The position numbers and the translations under genes were made by a program. From Pedobacter montanisoli (lineage in GTDB: Bacteria > Bacteroidota > Bacteroidia > Sphingobacteriales > Sphingobacteriaceae): DNA of 64,000 nt. The stretch is taken from contig NZ_JALGBH010000002.1 in the NCBI RefSeq assembly GCF_022809115.1, positions 747,543 through 811,542 on the forward strand. Reading direction: 5' to 3'. This document shows, piece by piece, positions 5,129 through 12,057 of this stretch (within the stretch, counting starts at the first letter, position 1; every line of letters starts with the position of its first letter). The notes below the pieces were generated by a model. It ran no database searches and was not told where the DNA came from. It was given only the letters and a program-made list of their open reading frames with translations.

Positions 5129-5815
5129 TTAACACACCAGTTTATAGCCCATTCCTCTTATATTGAGAATTTCTATACTCTTATCTTTTTGCAGATGTTT
5201 ACGTAATCGGGTAATAAAAACATCCATAGTACGGGTATTGAAAAAGCTGTCATCACCCCAGATTAAGGTAAGTGCTGTTTTTCGTTCGGTAATGGCATTC
5301 TTATGTTTATAAAGCAGGAATAAGAGTTCAGTTTCACGATTAGACAATCTGATGAGTTCCTGATCATACCAAAGCTCCTGTTTTTCATACTTAAAGAGAT
5401 ACTTGCCAATATTGATCTGTTCGGGCATTTTATCAGGAACATTTTTATGCCGGTTAAGTAATTCGGCAACTCTTAAAAAAAGCTCATCTAAGCTAAATGG
5501 TTTGCGTAAATAATCATTACCACCACTTTCATAGCCTTTAATTACATCTTTGGTCTCCGTTTTTGCAGTTAAAAATAGCAGCGGTGTCTGTTTATTGATT
5601 AACCTGATTTGCTGTGCAAGTGTAAAGCCGTCGGTATGAGGTAGCATTACATCTAAGATCAATAAGTCAAAATACCCGTTAAGAAAAGTATTGTAAGCTT
5701 TTTTACCGTCTGTTGCAATTGTAACATTATAATTCTGCTGTGCAAGACTATCACTGATTACTCGGGCTAATGCGGGTTCATCTTCAATAAGGAGGATATG
5801 TATTTTGCTCATCAT
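5129..5815 (-). CDS. OmpR/PhoB-family response regulator
   Basis: A 228-residue two-component regulator. The receiver domain (about 1-120) shows the acidic pocket E11-D12, the phospho-acceptor D55 in LILDVMLP, T83 and K105. The C-terminal winged-helix DNA-binding domain (about 129-228) ends RTMDVFITRLRKHLQ...IRGMGYKLVC, typical of OmpR/PhoB proteins. Its ATG overlaps the stop of the upstream histidine kinase by one base (TAATG), so the two are translationally coupled. Most Bacteroidota regulators of this type resemble RprY of Bacteroides. Its likely target is the phased TTAAC array at 7330-7374 upstream of its own operon. Confidence 0.93.
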   Translation of the reverse strand: MMSKIHILLIEDEPALARVISDSLAQQNYNVTIATDGKKAYNTFLNGYFDLLILDVMLPHTDGFTLAQQIRLINKQTPLLFLTAKTETKDVIKGYESGGNDYLRKPFSLDELFLRVAELLNRHKNVPDKMPEQINIGKYLFKYEKQELWYDQELIRLSNRETELLFLLYKHKNAITERKTALTLIWGDDSFFNTRTMDVFITRLRKHLQKDKSIEILNIRGMGYKLVC

Positions 5816-7290
5816 TAAAACTCAATGGTAAATATACTGCCTTTAGAGCCGTTGTTGGTTACGGTAAGACTTGCTTTATGTAGATCCATGATTTTTTTAA
5901 CATAGCTTAAACCTAAACCATAACCTTTTACATCATGGTTATCAGTAGCATTTATTCTAAAAAAAGGTTCAAATATCTTCGTTCTGAATTCGGAAGGAAT
6001 ACCTATGCCATTATCTGATATTCGGATCTGATAATGGTTATTTTTATGGCTTAACACAATCCGTATTTCTTTCAGAGGACTGAAATTATACTTGTATGCA
6101 TTATCCAATAAATTACTTAAAGCATTCTTTAGATCGTTTCTGCTGCCTTTAATAATAGCAGCTTTAAGGTTTTGATGACTAAAAGATAAGTCTATGGCTG
6201 TTCTTTGTCCAAACTCTTCTGTTAACTCGTTAAGAAGACTTATCAGGTCAATGTCCTCTTGTATGGTAATGCCCAAAGTTTCCAGTTTGGCATTTTGTAA
6301 GATTTGAGCGGTTAAATTATTTAATTTCCCGGCTTGTTGTTTAATGATTTCTAGGTATTGTTTTTGCGTTTCAATGTCAAATGAAAATCTTTCAAGTGCT
6401 TCTGTTGTAACTTGTATGGATGAAAGAGGGGTGTGAAATTCATGTGTCATATTGCTAATGAACTGATCTTTGATCAGTACCAGTTTTTGCTGCCTGAGCA
6501 AAGTTTTTATAGTGTAGATAAAAGAAAAGATGGTAATCCCGATCAATAATAAAGAAGTGATGATGATCCATTTCATTTCTCTGAAATAAAACCGGTTAGG
6601 ATTTTCAAGCGTAAGCTGTACCCATTCTTTTTCAAAGGGTCTCCTTAAAGAAGCGTTTACTTTTTCACTTACAAAGTAGTTTTTAGCATCTTTAATTGCC
6701 TGAGCATTGATGGTGAAAGACGAATTGATCTCCTTTGTTTTTAATTCTTGTTTAAGGTACTTGTCTAACTGTTGTAGGTTTACTTTACTGGCATTCATCA
6801 TTACATTTATACTGTCACCCAAACCCTGGGTGTAATAGTATACAATCCCTTTTTTAATATCCTCTTTAAATACTATTTCGGCAAAATGATTGATGAAGAT
6901 TTCTTTAGCTTCAGGAGTGATTTTTCTAAGTTTTTTAGTGAATTTGGCTAAACCGATTTTGAAGAATTTAGTACGCCTGCTGGTATCTTCCAGAAACCGA
7001 GGATGCGTATCCTGTAAAGTAAATACCGTATTGCTGTCGCGGTTCTTGATATCACAATCAATGGTAAATAAAGAGGTGTCGGCAAGCCAGATTTTAACCT
7101 GTTTAACCATTTGGTTACGCCACCATTCCATTTCGCTGTTAACCGCATTGTTCAAAGCCTGATTTACCTCGGCCTTAAAATTTTTTGTAACGGTTTTATA
7201 GCTGCGGTAATTCCAGTACAACTGCAGGCAGACAATGCCCAATACACAGCAGCTCATAAGTACCACAACAAAGCGCATATTTTTTTGCAT
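5815..7290 (-). CDS. Two-component sensor histidine kinase
   Basis: Membrane-bound sensor of about 490 residues. TM1 is at about residues 5-26 and a periplasmic region of about 210 residues without a recognised domain follows. TM2 (IIITSLLLIGITIFSFIY) is at about 241-261. The kinase core comes next: H box with phospho-acceptor His in MTHEFHTPLSS (about 283), N box NLLDNAYKYN, G1 box DNGIGI and G2 box GYGLGL. No HAMP domain is evident between TM2 and the H box. Start codons at 7296, 7290 and 7278 are possible. A TATGTTTG box at 7294-7301 predicts transcription starting near 7288, which argues against 7296 and favours 7278 or a leaderless 7290. It probably autophosphorylates and signals to the coupled regulator. 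Confidence 0.92.
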   Translation of the reverse strand: MQKNMRFVVVLMSCCVLGIVCLQLYWNYRSYKTVTKNFKAEVNQALNNAVNSEMEWWRNQMVKQVKIWLADTSLFTIDCDIKNRDSNTVFTLQDTHPRFLEDTSRRTKFFKIGLAKFTKKLRKITPEAKEIFINHFAEIVFKEDIKKGIVYYYTQGLGDSINVMMNASKVNLQQLDKYLKQELKTKEINSSFTINAQAIKDAKNYFVSEKVNASLRRPFEKEWVQLTLENPNRFYFREMKWIIITSLLLIGITIFSFIYTIKTLLRQQKLVLIKDQFISNMTHEFHTPLSSIQVTTEALERFSFDIETQKQYLEIIKQQAGKLNNLTAQILQNAKLETLGITIQEDIDLISLLNELTEEFGQRTAIDLSFSHQNLKAAIIKGSRNDLKNALSNLLDNAYKYNFSPLKEIRIVLSHKNNHYQIRISDNGIGIPSEFRTKIFEPFFRINATDNHDVKGYGLGLSYVKKIMDLHKASLTVTNNGSKGSIFTIEF

Positions 7291-7293
7291 GCA

Positions 7294-7301
7294 CAAACAT
7301 A
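7294..7301 (-). promoter_or_regulatory. Candidate -7 promoter box for the histidine kinase operon
   Basis: On the minus strand the sequence reads TATGTTTG, a full match to the Bacteroidota -7 consensus TAnnTTTG. A GTTTTT stretch lies about 20 bp upstream as a weak -33 element. Using the 6-nt distance seen at rnpB in this window, transcription would start near 7288. Confidence 0.5.
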
Positions 7302-7329
7302 AGTTTATTGAGGTGTAAAAACTGATGAG

Positions 7330-7374
7330 TTAACACTAATTAACTTAGCTTAACTTTTGTTAACCTCACTTACG
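7330..7374. promoter_or_regulatory. Phased TTAAC direct-repeat array, likely response-regulator operator
   Basis: TTAAC occurs at 7330, 7340, 7350 and 7360, each exactly 10 bp apart, with a degenerate fifth copy (TTACG) at 7370. OmpR/PhoB-type regulators bind head-to-tail direct repeats spaced 10-11 bp on one face of the helix, and this array lies in the divergent promoter region between an OmpR/PhoB-type system and the thioredoxin-DUF3738 gene. It sits about 30-75 bp upstream of both predicted -7 regions, suitable for activation of both genes. Binding is inferred, not shown. Confidence 0.7.
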
Positions 7375-7410
7375 TTCATTTAGCAGCACTTTTGCCTAAA
7401 ACACAATGAT

Positions 7411-8574
7411 ATGAGAAGAATTATTCTATGTCTGTTGCTGATGACAGGCTTAAGCTATGCCCAACAAATAAAAATAGGAGAGAAAGTACCTGATTTTACG
7501 TTAGATACTGTTTTAAATGCATCTTCAAAGTCGTTCAAATCGGCAGATTTTAAAGACAAAATTATCTGGATTGAGTTTTGGGCTACCTGGTGCGGACCTT
7601 GCATATCGGCAATGCCACATTTAGAGCAGATGCAGGCAAAATATAAAGATAAATTACAGGTAATTACCGTAACCAACGAAAAAGAAGAACGTATTCGACA
7701 GTTTCTTAAAAATAAACCTTTTAAATTATGGTTTGCTATTGATGGGGCAGAACAGTTAAGAAAATACTTTCCTTTTGCAGTTATACCGCATAGCATTTTA
7801 ATAGATACAGAAGGAAACTTATTCGCAACCGCTGCTCCCGAAGAAATTACCGAAAAAATAATCGATAGTTTGTGGGCCAAGCAAAAACCTAAAATTAATG
7901 TAAAAACAGATAATCTTACCACAGATTATATACAAACCTATTTTAAAGTGCCTGATACAGTCAAGGAAAGGGTGTTATGGCAGCCCGAGATCAAGGGCGG
8001 ACCGGGAATGCTCCATACGTTTGCATTAGACAGTAATTTTAAAGGCAGAAGGTTAACTTTTATCAATGTAGGCCTAAATAATATGTATATGCGTGCTTTC
8101 GGAGATTTTCCTTACGGAAGAACTATAGATAAGGTCAAAGATAAGAACAGGTATTGCTTAGATATTATTGTAGAAAAACCTCAGGAGCTCATACCTGCTT
8201 TAAAGGCAGAGCTTGCTTCTAAATTTAATTTACATGCAAACATCACACCTTATGATAAAGAAGTTCTGCTTTTAAAAATTGAAGATCAAAACCTGTTTAA
8301 TAAAGTTACCCGGAACAGCAGTGGTAAAAGAACTTACTTTGCCCGACATGGTGAAATAGATCAGCAAGGTATAACTATGAACGATTTCGCAGATTTTTTA
8401 GAAATATTTGGCTATGGTAAGTTTGTTCTGGATGAAACGGGAAATCAGGAAAAATTTGACATCAAATTCAGTTTCGCACCCGAAGATCCGCAGAGCTTAA
8501 CCAAAATACTCAGTAATATGGGCTTGCGTTTAGAAAAAGCACATAGAAAAATAGATATGCTTACTATAGAATAG
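7411..8574 (+). CDS. Thioredoxin-like (TlpA) protein fused to a DUF3738 domain
   Basis: A 387-residue exported protein. It has a signal peptide (about 1-17, ending SYAQ) and a TlpA-like thioredoxin domain (about 20-160) with CGPC at 61-64 in FWATWCGPC and a cis-Pro near 132 (AVIPHSIL). A C-terminal region of about 200 residues ends in VLDETGNQEKFDIKFSF...LTKILSNMGLRLEK, matching the C-terminal signature of DUF3738 (also listed as a soil-bacteria family, TIGR03435). DUF3738 function is unknown. The gene is divergent from the two-component operon and shares the TTAAC array, so it is the prime candidate target of that system, possibly reporting or repairing periplasmic thiol state. Confidence 0.85.
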   Translation: MRRIILCLLLMTGLSYAQQIKIGEKVPDFTLDTVLNASSKSFKSADFKDKIIWIEFWATWCGPCISAMPHLEQMQAKYKDKLQVITVTNEKEERIRQFLKNKPFKLWFAIDGAEQLRKYFPFAVIPHSILIDTEGNLFATAAPEEITEKIIDSLWAKQKPKINVKTDNLTTDYIQTYFKVPDTVKERVLWQPEIKGGPGMLHTFALDSNFKGRRLTFINVGLNNMYMRAFGDFPYGRTIDKVKDKNRYCLDIIVEKPQELIPALKAELASKFNLHANITPYDKEVLLLKIEDQNLFNKVTRNSSGKRTYFARHGEIDQQGITMNDFADFLEIFGYGKFVLDETGNQEKFDIKFSFAPEDPQSLTKILSNMGLRLEKAHRKIDMLTIE

Positions 8575-9073: not shown

Positions 9074-10714
9074 GTGAAACGCAGAAATTTTATTTATTTA
9101 ACAGGGATTGGGGCTGCTGCGGCAATGCTTCCTGCAATTCCTGTATTTGGGAGAGAAATTTCTCCAGAGCGGGCATTAGAATATATTGACCCTGCTGCCA
9201 AAAAAATAATGTCGGATGTGGCTTTAAATGCTGCTCGCTCAAAAGGAGCAACCTACACAGATGTACGTGTAGGACGATATCTCAATCAATATGTAGTAAC
9301 AAGAGAGGATAAAGTACAGAATATAGTAAATACCGAATCGTATGGCATTGGTATTCGTGTAATTGCTAATGGAAGCTGGGGCTTTGCGGCAACAGATAAA
9401 TTGGATAAAGACAGCATTGCTCAAGCAGCAGAACTGGCTGTAGCCATTGCTAAAGAAAACTCACGTTTGTTAACTGAACCTGTACAATTGGCGCCTCAAA
9501 AAGGGTATGGAGAAGTGAGCTGGAAGGCCCCTATAGAAAAAAATGCTTTTGAAGTTCCCATTAAAGAAAAGGTAGATCTGCTTTTATCTGTAAATGATGC
9601 CGCCATGAAAGGTGGTGCAGATTATGTTAATTCTATTTTATTTATGGTGAACGAACAGAAATATTTTGCTTCTTCAGACGGTTCTTATATTGATCAGGAC
9701 ATTCATCGGATTTGGCCTACGTTCTTCATCACAAAAATTGATAAAGTAACAGGTAAATTTGAAACCCGAAATGCATTAAGTGCACCTACGGGTAAAGGTT
9801 ATGAATATCTGAATGCCAGACCAGAAGATAAAATACACAGCCCAATCGGCACACTTTATAAAGGCCGTTACGATATGCTTGAGGATGCCAAACAGGCTGC
9901 CGTACAAGTAGGTGAAAAAATGACCGCAAAATCAGTAGATCCTGGTAAATATGATCTGGTATTAGACCCATCGCACTTATGGTTAACTATTCATGAATCG
10001 TGCGGACACCCTACAGAGCTTGACCGGGTATTAGGTTACGAAGCTAATTTTGCCGGAACCAGTTTCCTTACTTTGGATAAATGGGAATCTAAGAAATTTA
10101 ACTACGGTAGTAAAGAAGTAAACATTACAGCTGATAAAACAGAAGTAGGCTCTTTAGGTGCAGTCGGTTATGACGATGAAGGTGTAAAATGCGGAAAATG
10201 GGATATTATTAAAGATGGCATATTGGTAAATTATCAGGCTATCCGGGATCAAGCACATATTGTAGGGCTGGATCATTCTCAAGGTTGCTGTTATGCCGAT
10301 AACTGGAGCAGTGTTCAATTTCAGCGTATGGCTAACATTTCTTTGCAACCCGGTAAAAAGCCATTAACTATTGCAGATCAGATTAAGAATGTAGAAAAAG
10401 GTATTTATATCGTTGGCGATGGCTCTTTCTCTATTGATCAGCAACGCTATAATTTTCAATTTGGTGGACAGCTCTATTATGAAATCAAAAACGGTAAAAT
10501 TGCAGGGATGCTCAAAGACGTAGCCTACCAAGCCAATACACAAGAATTTTGGAACTCGTGCGTGGCCATTTGTGATCAGAGCGATTATCGTTTAGGAGGA
10601 TCTTTTTTTGATGGAAAGGGACAACCTATGCAGTCAAGTGCTGTATCTCACGGATCGGCAACTGCACGTTTCAATAAAGTTAACGTAATTAATACAGCTA
10701 GAAAAATCGGATAG
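9074..10714 (+). CDS. TldD-like metalloprotease with a twin-arginine signal
   Basis: A 546-residue member of the TldD/PmbA (U62) family. The GTG start gives MKRRNFIYLTGIGAAAAMLP, a Tat-type signal with the RR pair at residues 3-4, a hydrophobic stretch and a likely cleavage site near PVFG. The zinc-binding HExxxH motif (HESCGH) is at residues 307-312; a conserved Cys region (CCYADNW, about 410) follows, as in TldD. E. coli TldD/TldE form a cytoplasmic heterodimer that degrades unfolded peptides (microcin maturation, CcdA turnover); here the Tat signal implies export of the folded protein. It is followed 5 bp later by the TldE-like partner. The preceding 220 bp hold no gene. Confidence 0.9.
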   Translation: MKRRNFIYLTGIGAAAAMLPAIPVFGREISPERALEYIDPAAKKIMSDVALNAARSKGATYTDVRVGRYLNQYVVTREDKVQNIVNTESYGIGIRVIANGSWGFAATDKLDKDSIAQAAELAVAIAKENSRLLTEPVQLAPQKGYGEVSWKAPIEKNAFEVPIKEKVDLLLSVNDAAMKGGADYVNSILFMVNEQKYFASSDGSYIDQDIHRIWPTFFITKIDKVTGKFETRNALSAPTGKGYEYLNARPEDKIHSPIGTLYKGRYDMLEDAKQAAVQVGEKMTAKSVDPGKYDLVLDPSHLWLTIHESCGHPTELDRVLGYEANFAGTSFLTLDKWESKKFNYGSKEVNITADKTEVGSLGAVGYDDEGVKCGKWDIIKDGILVNYQAIRDQAHIVGLDHSQGCCYADNWSSVQFQRMANISLQPGKKPLTIADQIKNVEKGIYIVGDGSFSIDQQRYNFQFGGQLYYEIKNGKIAGMLKDVAYQANTQEFWNSCVAICDQSDYRLGGSFFDGKGQPMQSSAVSHGSATARFNKVNVINTARKIG

Positions 10715-10719
10715 AAATC

Positions 10720-12057
10720 ATGCCAATATTAACGAAAGAACAAGCTAAAGCTCTTTTGACTAAAGCGCTTAGTTACTCAAAAGCAGAACAATGCGAAATA
10801 AATCTATATGGGTCTGATAGTGGTAATATCAGGTATGCCAAAAATTCCGTATCTACAAGTGGCGGGATCAGTTCTAACGGAATGGTGGTCACTTCTGCAT
10901 TTGGAAAAAAATCAGGAACAGCTACCATTAATGAGTTTGATGATGCTTCTTTAGAAAAAGTAGTGCGTCGTTCTGAGGAATTGGCCCAACTTGCACCTGA
11001 AAATCCAGAATTTATGCCTTTTCTTGGTCCGCAACAATATGGCCCTGAAACGCCTACATTTTCTGAATCTACAGCTGCTGTATCGCCAAAAGAAAGAGCA
11101 GATGCTGTACAGGCAAGTTTAACCCAAGCCAAAGAAAATAAATTGACTGCTGCTGGTTTTCTATCAAATAGCATGGGCTACTCGGCAATGATGAACAGCA
11201 AAGGTTTATTTGCCTATAACAAATCTACGGATGTAGCATTTAACATTACGGTAAGAACAGAAGATGGTAAAGGTTCTGGCTATGCCACCAAAGGTTATAA
11301 TGACTTTACAAAATTGAATGCTAAAGCAGATACCGCCATTGCAGCCAAGAAAGCATTATCATCTGTAGCCGCTAAAGCAATAGAACCGGGAAAATATACC
11401 GTTATTCTGGAACCGACTGCTGTTGCAGTAATGCTCGAAAATTTGTTTTCTGGCTTAGATGCCAGACAAGCCGATGAAGGCCGTAGTTTTATGAGCAAAC
11501 CGGGAGGCAAAACAAAAGTAGGGGAACAGTTGGTAGATGAACGTGTTAATATCTATTCAGATCCATGGAACACGGAATTGCCAACCTCAAATTGGTCGGG
11601 TGATGGCAGACCTCAGGAAAAAGTAAACTGGATTGAAAAGGGAGTGGTTAAAAATCTATATAGTTCTAGATATTGGGCACAGAAAACAGGGATTAAAGCA
11701 ATTCCTTCGCCAGATGGTATGATTATGCAGGGTGGCTCTAAAACCTTAGAAGAATTGATCAAAGGCACCGAAAAAGGGATATTGGTTACTCGTTTGTGGT
11801 ATATCCGTTCGGTTGATCCTCAAACGTTATTGTTAACGGGATTAACACGAGATGGTACTTTTTACATTGAAAATGGAGAAATCAAATTTCCGGTTAAAAA
11901 CTTCCGTTTCAATGAAAGTCCTATTATCATGTTAAACAATCTAGACGAGTTGGGTAAAACAGAAAGAACAGTTAGTGGAGAAAGTAATGCCAATTACCTG
12001 TTACCTCCATTAAAAATAAGAGACTTTACGTTTACCTCTCTATCAGATGCGATTTGA
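10720..12057 (+). CDS. TldE/PmbA-like metalloprotease partner subunit
   Basis: A 445-residue TldD/PmbA family member without the HExxxH motif, as expected for the TldE-type partner that completes the active heterodimer. Family features include the N-terminal domain with NSVSTSGGISSNGMVVTS and the C-terminal GLTRDGTFYIENGEIKFPVKNFRFNES stretch. The C-terminal domain begins near PGKYTVILEPTAVAVMLENL. It has no signal peptide and starts MPILTKEQAKALL. Because the TldD-like neighbour carries a Tat signal and Tat moves folded complexes, this subunit could be exported by riding on its partner. The operon ends in a strong palindromic terminator at 12075. Confidence 0.88.
   Translation: MPILTKEQAKALLTKALSYSKAEQCEINLYGSDSGNIRYAKNSVSTSGGISSNGMVVTSAFGKKSGTATINEFDDASLEKVVRRSEELAQLAPENPEFMPFLGPQQYGPETPTFSESTAAVSPKERADAVQASLTQAKENKLTAAGFLSNSMGYSAMMNSKGLFAYNKSTDVAFNITVRTEDGKGSGYATKGYNDFTKLNAKADTAIAAKKALSSVAAKAIEPGKYTVILEPTAVAVMLENLFSGLDARQADEGRSFMSKPGGKTKVGEQLVDERVNIYSDPWNTELPTSNWSGDGRPQEKVNWIEKGVVKNLYSSRYWAQKTGIKAIPSPDGMIMQGGSKTLEELIKGTEKGILVTRLWYIRSVDPQTLLLTGLTRDGTFYIENGEIKFPVKNFRFNESPIIMLNNLDELGKTERTVSGESNANYLLPPLKIRDFTFTSLSDAI

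Follow-up and report, generated by a model that had tools for sequence, protein, structure and literature searches.

An array of TTAAC direct repeats is the putative operator of an RprY-like two-component system in Pedobacter montanisoli

Introduction

Direct-repeat operators of OmpR-type response regulators are already well known. The half-site of Escherichia coli ArcA, GTTAA, reads TTAAC on the opposite strand. ArcA was described to bind two to five direct repeats spaced 11 bp centre-to-centre, with the dimers side by side, repressing 74 operons and activating 11 (PMC3798270). In the E. coli PhoB box, direct repeats precede the -10 box by 10 bp, and the cyanobacterial SphR binds at least three direct repeats CTTAACCT of 8 bp with 3-bp linkers, i.e., with an 11-bp period (PMC1906773). 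In Bacteroidota, the only measured TTAAC/TTTAACA-type motif that we found in the open-access literature belongs to PhoP of Riemerella anatipestifer, an OmpR-type regulator of a two-component system. Its core TTTAACA was reported from DAP-seq, and the protein bound its own promoter in EMSA, its unphosphorylated form binding as well (PMC9603813). Promoters of the phylum have been described in Flavobacterium psychrophilum, where the sigma-A -7 box TAnnTTTG occupies positions -12 to -5 and only 5.5% of mRNAs are reported as leaderless (PMC9723704).

Here we describe an array of TTAAC repeats within a 64,000-nucleotide stretch of the Pedobacter montanisoli genome (further referred to as the window), its conservation and its occurrence in related genomes.

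Sequence of the array and the genes at the locus

The array is located between a minus-strand operon coding for a sensor histidine kinase (HK) and a response regulator (RR) and the plus-strand gene at 7411-8574 (Table 1). Plus-strand TTAAC copies at 7330-7334, 7340-7344, 7350-7354 and 7360-7364 follow each other in exact 10-bp register. Together with TTACG at 7370, they are positioned exactly as claimed in an earlier sequence-only reading of the window, and the head-to-tail, one-turn architecture proposed there is borne out by the sequence. An in-register TTAGC is present beyond TTACG, at 7380. The linkers between the half-sites are unequal (ACTAA, TTAGC, TTTTG and CTCAC), and with their flanks the half-sites read GTTAACA, ATTAACT, CTTAACT and GTTAACC, to be compared with the TTTAACA core of Riemerella PhoP.

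Table 1. Features of the array locus (window coordinates)
Feature	Position	Strand	Remarks
HK-proximal half-site pair TTAACACTAATTAAC	7330..7344	+	Predicted one-dimer site; all 15 bases invariant in 13/13 orthologs
Second half-site pair TTAACTTTTGTTAAC	7350..7364	+	Predicted second dimer; TTAACN5TTAAC in 13/13 orthologs
Degenerate fifth unit TTACG	7370..7374	+	In register; 12 bp ahead of the predicted -7 box of the divergent gene
Predicted sigma-A -7 box of the HK-RR operon, TATGTTTG	7294..7301	-	28 bp from the array
Predicted -7 box of the divergent gene, CACTTTTG	7387..7394	+	One mismatch to TAnnTTTG; 22 bp from the array
Sensor HK	5815..7290	-	HisKA + HATPase_c; ATG at 7290 or 7278; transcription start predicted at ~7289
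OmpR/PhoB-type RR, RprY-like; candidate array ligand	5129..5815	-	Response_reg (PF00072) + Trans_reg_C (PF00486)
Secreted TlpA/thioredoxin-like protein with DUF3738; candidate target	7411..8574	+	Redoxin, AhpC-TSA, DUF3738

The array is real, and its pattern goes far beyond chance. The longest chain of TTAAC at 10-bp steps was two in 20,000 dinucleotide-preserving shuffles of the intergenic region 7297-7410, and also two in 100 shuffles of the whole window. With two mismatches allowed, the three-copy pattern matched the window five times, every time at the array, while 100 window shuffles gave 0.67 matches on average and 3 at most. An iteron or minisatellite was rejected, as it requires near-identical whole units and here only five of the ten bases repeat and the linkers differ. 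A single-strand structure was rejected as well: the DNA fold of 7320-7400 has a z score of -1.69, and 13 of 200 shuffles folded equally well.

The adjacent regulator had been assigned to the OmpR type, and both the receiver and the DNA-binding domain of this type were indeed found in it. RprY of the RprY/RprX system of Bacteroidota (NF051850) is its best NCBIfam model, yet the score of 244.3 bits is under the cut-off of 370, so the window RR is RprY-like and not RprY by that test. The same model is the best one for six other RprY-like regulators, all seven scoring under the equivalog cut-off. The solved chains closest to the window RR by sequence include RpaA, RegX3, PrrA, and PhoP.

No open-access literature linking DUF3738 with thioredoxin was found. 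A second thioredoxin-like protein (AhpC-TSA/Redoxin) is encoded in the window at 735-1466. The region 9074-12057 contains a TldD/TldE (PmbA)-like ORF pair, the first with a signal-like N-terminus (both judged by eye only).

Conservation of the array in orthologous loci

A search of 148 relatives with the HK N-terminus matched 24 genomes at E 1e-5. The ortholog set comprises 13 genomes, all of the same genus and including that of P. montanisoli, with HK identities of 43-100%; the orthologs were picked by the HK protein alone, blind to DNA. All 13 contain TTAACACTAATTAAC-N5/6-TTAAC-N5-TTAAC inside spacers that have otherwise diverged, so the array passed the refutation test of the sequence-only reading, which had asked for its conservation in close relatives that keep the divergent genes. 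Of 39 matching stretches in a separate search of named genomes, four were relatives, one of them a close ortholog, that of Pedobacter sp. UBA1951.

The spacing within pairs is 10 bp in every ortholog, while the offset from pair to pair is 20 bp in six of them and 21 bp in seven, which implies that the pairs are units. We read them as two probable dimer sites whose separation can vary slightly. The ACTAA linker is invariant in all 13 orthologs. The fifth unit is not conserved: none of the other 12 orthologs has TTAAC in its place.

The divergent gene is of the thioredoxin-DUF3738 type in eight of the 13 orthologs (judged by similarity; two were scanned with Pfam). In the other five (L010, L013, L015, L016, and L020), a secreted protein of about 208 amino acids is encoded instead, and the array is unchanged; the one such protein scanned, from L010, had no Pfam match. 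The proposed control of the thioredoxin fusion is not fully supported: it is deduced only from the geometry described below, and a different secreted protein replaces the fusion in these five orthologs.

Predicted promoters of the two divergent genes

E. coli sigma-70 promoters were rejected as a guide (two matches versus 0.8 expected), and the Bacteroidota -7 box took their place. The array had been placed just upstream of both divergent promoters, which agrees with the predicted -7 boxes lying 28 and 22 bp from its ends. On the HK side, ten orthologs have an exact TAnnTTTG and three have TAnnTTTA; the distance to the array is 28 bp in 11 of the 13, 29 bp in one and 27 bp in one (hand-read), and L014 and L019 have equal or better box matches elsewhere on that side. 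A box-like match is located on the divergent side at 22 bp in 12 orthologs and at 21 bp in one. It is exact in one of the 13, has one mismatch in 11 and two mismatches in one, and five orthologs have an equally good match elsewhere on that side.

Transcription is predicted to start at 7289 for the HK and at 7399 for the divergent gene, which would place the array at about -41 to -75 relative to the former and -35 to -69 relative to the latter. At these positions, the array would most likely serve as a PhoB-like activating site for the thioredoxin gene, a direction suggested by analogy. Where the HK-side box is exact (ten orthologs), the ATG of the HK begins at the fourth to sixth base past it (7276-7301 in the window, minus strand). 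Since the ATG is so near to the -7 box, the HK mRNA may be leaderless.

Repeats in front of other histidine kinase operons

Eight full-length OmpR-type loci are present in the P. montanisoli genome. The nearest paralogous two-component system (44-45% identity) has a same-orientation TTAACN5TTAAC 46 nt ahead of its HK, and TTAACAATTTTTAAC is located upstream of the operon of the paralogous RprY-like regulator (C1:1213041). A scan of 6-kb stretches at the other six OmpR-type loci turned up a single repeat, an 11-bp pair ahead of L190, a PhoB-like orphan regulator.

A search by protein similarity detected RprX-like HKs in only five of 247 genomes of the phylum at E 1e-20, including that of P. montanisoli. 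All five have TTAACN5TTAAC upstream (read by eye), with linkers other than ACTAA, and their promoters contain TTTAACA-like units. In six further HK loci with 22-27% identity (group B, WTAAC arrays read by eye), a single exact TTAAC leads a series of WTAAC units, the first two of which keep the 10-bp spacing. The divergent gene is of the thioredoxin type in these loci too (DUF3738 tested with Pfam in one). Two or more TTAAC at 10 bp are also present in all eight loci found via weak HK similarity (L027-L034). Spacing in group D is 10-10-11, and the same pairing is not evident there.

The RRs encoded behind array-bearing HKs form one branch of 38 sequences with support of 99/97, and the window RR is inside it. 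Half of them (19, groups C and D) were chosen for having arrays and the other 19 were not; the tree lacks the RR of L024, for which no sequence was obtained, and the program flags long branches adjacent to the 38. The sampled HK operons of this RprY-like branch, as we define it here, have TTAAC or WTAAC repeats upstream, and the window RR shares both the branch and the repeats before its HK.

Occurrence of TTAAC repeats in the genome and in the class

In the 3.29-Mb genome, the exact three-copy pattern matches only the array (two overlapping matches) and C1:808683, while the reversed-pattern control gives no match. Allowing 11-bp spacing adds no three-copy place in the genome. Two TTAAC at 10 bp occur 50 times versus 19 for the reversed control, and with gaps of 1-25 pooled the counts are 780 versus 650. 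When the gaps were allowed to vary over 1-13, three copies showed no excess in the P. montanisoli genome (21 versus 24 in the control) and lay above or below the control in the other genomes, genome by genome. The other three-copy array at C1:808683 (L195) is located between genes for an aldehyde dehydrogenase and an FAD-dependent protein; the same 25 bases occur again in the nearest relative, G045.

Across the 148 related genomes, 130 three-copy matches were found versus 28 for the reversed pattern (overlapping matches counted), with at least one match in 66 genomes. The pair TTAACACTAATTAAC has 31 sites in 29 of the 89 genomes of the genus, and the control has two; 13 of these sites are at the studied locus and 18 are in 16 other genomes. 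Inspection by eye of five of the 18, three of which are the same orthologous site, found no recognisable HK downstream. TTAACACTAATTAAC as a private code of the window two-component system is ruled out by the 18 sites elsewhere in the genus. TTAAC had also been offered as a search pattern for the regulon in this lineage; as a regulator-specific pattern it is not supported, because TTAACN5TTAAC precedes the nearest paralogous HK-RR operon and other HK operons as well, so that TTAAC pairs serve several paralogous systems.

We examined 30 of the 50 two-copy sites of the P. montanisoli genome, of which 19 are intergenic. Their forward boxes are located at 22, 32, and 33 bp, but also at 26, 45, 54, and 62 bp, and their reverse boxes at 12, 26, 27 (three cases), and 37 bp. 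One of the two-copy sites of this genome (L085) and a three-copy site in a genome of another family (L042) both lie between dapF-like and HtrA/DegP-like genes (named by eye), hinting at an envelope-stress regulon. TTAACAGACGTTAAC is identical at three contig ends of the P. montanisoli assembly (C2:113, C2:1549056, and C3:1), which suggests a repeated element where the assembly breaks.

Position of the arrays relative to promoters

The related genomes contain 111 distinct three-copy arrays, of which we examined 90 (six at the studied locus and 15 others were excluded), with the surrounding ORFs called mechanically. For 87 of the 90, an outward gene lies within 400 nt on one side or both, and a single array is located inside an ORF. 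Clusters of neighbours include outer-membrane beta-barrel proteins (25) and TMEM260-like membrane proteins (19), both named from one Pfam-scanned member each, and HKs (17), recognised by likeness to the window HK. TTAAC points away from the adjacent HK in all 17 cases. For the 73 arrays where no adjacent HK was detected, a gene within 150 nt is present on the forward side only in 37 cases, on the reverse side only in 11, on both sides in 18 and on neither in seven.

Among the 69 forward promoters, 35 have an exact TAnnTTTG, with distances from the array of 12 (4), 19 (1), 22 (12), 32 (10), or 33 bp (8); forward sides without an outward gene have the box in six of 21 cases. Filtering for redundancy at 62% identity, which dropped the lone 19-bp box (L107), left 49 forward promoters; 23 of them have the exact box, all at 12, 22, 32, or 33 bp. 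On the reverse side of the filtered set, the box is exact in 14 of 33 cases, at 26-28 (8), 38 (2), 48-49 (2), 2 and 54 bp. For a period of 10.5 bp, the Rayleigh p values are 3e-10 (forward) and 0.0016 (reverse), although the redundancy filter does not amount to a phylogenetic correction; the phases, 1.1 and 6.2, are about half a turn apart. Decoy motifs gave 0-5 matches each, too few for a phase comparison. The distances of the window array itself, 22 and 28 bp, fall within the forward and reverse classes. In the open-access literature searched for TTAAC/TTTAACA regulators of Bacteroidota, no report of such a helical-phase rule was found.

Discussion

The array has the features of an OmpR/PhoB-type direct-repeat operator: four head-to-tail half-sites 10 bp apart in the window, the 10-(10/11)-10 spacing in all 13 orthologs, and an adjacent regulator with a receiver and a winged-helix domain. 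Among the closest known systems, Riemerella PhoP belongs to the same phylum and the OmpR type and has a TTTAACA core; its own site was reported at -156 to -121 of the operon, unlike the window array (PMC9603813). The ArcA repeats are spaced 11 bp centre-to-centre, whereas the window and ortholog arrays have 10 bp with one step of 10 or 11 (PMC3798270). The likeness to cyanobacterial Pho boxes noted from the sequence is fair, as the half-site of SphR, with its 3-bp linkers, is nearly the same, although the reported SphR targets are phosphate genes in a different phylum (PMC1906773). The window array is not an SphR Pho box: its period is 10 and not 11 bp, and the bases after TTAAC vary. The PhoB box has another half-site and an 11-bp period, while its reported 10-bp distance to the -10 box resembles the 12-bp class of TTAAC arrays (PMC1906773). 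Overall, it looks as if the window array works like the sites of ArcA, SphR, PhoB and Riemerella PhoP, to which it adds one more.

The operator reading is well supported by comparison, and we consider it very probable that the adjacent two-component system has its operator in the array. Two tandem dimers of the phosphorylated OmpR-type RR, arranged head to tail, would occupy one TTAACN5TTAAC pair each, and this single site would control both divergent promoters, providing autoregulation of the HK-RR operon and regulation of the neighbouring secreted-protein gene. Binding by the adjacent RR, the dimer stoichiometry, the direction of regulation and the start sites are what we infer from the arrangement of the sites and from the related systems. 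Replacement of the thioredoxin gene in five of the 13 orthologs and the divergent-side box being exact in only one of them count against this model.

The most serious competitor, although an unlikely one, is the paralogous RprY-like regulator encoded at C1:1213041, which might be the main ligand of the array as a shared global site in place of the adjacent RR. Both RRs belong to one branch, TTAACAATTTTTAAC precedes the operon of the paralog, and TTAAC arrays precede many genes without a detected adjacent HK; as this holds for 73 of the 90 arrays, another RprY-like regulator could bind the window array too. However, the ACTAA linker that never varies among the 13 orthologs is replaced in the five RprX-like HK promoters, and the four-copy array accompanies the window two-component system in every one of the 13 genomes, which argues for the adjacent RR.

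That a regulator of another family, encoded elsewhere, uses TTAAC half-sites by coincidence seems highly improbable: while the link of the site to the OmpR type within the genus comes from sequence comparison, the repeats associate with HK-RR operons of one OmpR-type branch, and the TTTAACA motif measured in the same phylum is that of an OmpR-type regulator (PMC9603813). We give practically no credence to a functionless product of chance or tandem duplication (minisatellite). The spacer is intergenic and AT-rich, which speaks for such an origin, but shuffles never produced more than two copies in register, the linkers are unequal, and the conservation in all 13 diverged spacers together with the rigid distances to both -7 boxes contradicts it.

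Beyond the locus, we tentatively propose, as a possibility that we rate below even, a cis-code of RprY-like regulators spread through the class, of which the TTAAC array is one instance. Half-sites would be 10-11 bp apart. Where TTAAC reads toward the gene, the -7 box would be phase-locked at 12 bp or at that distance increased by whole turns, whereas at the HK promoter it would be shifted by roughly half a turn (27-28 bp, again with whole turns added). The same occupied array would in that case be an activator of the forward gene and have another effect on the kinase promoter, e.g., autorepression, while paralogous systems would be kept apart by the linker and the copy number.

The analysis takes a single locus to an explicit rule, comprising the half-site, its spacing, its orientation and the distance to the -7 box, that is seen in many genomes of the class. 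Such a rule yields regulon predictions, and autoregulation versus activation of the divergent gene becomes directly testable.
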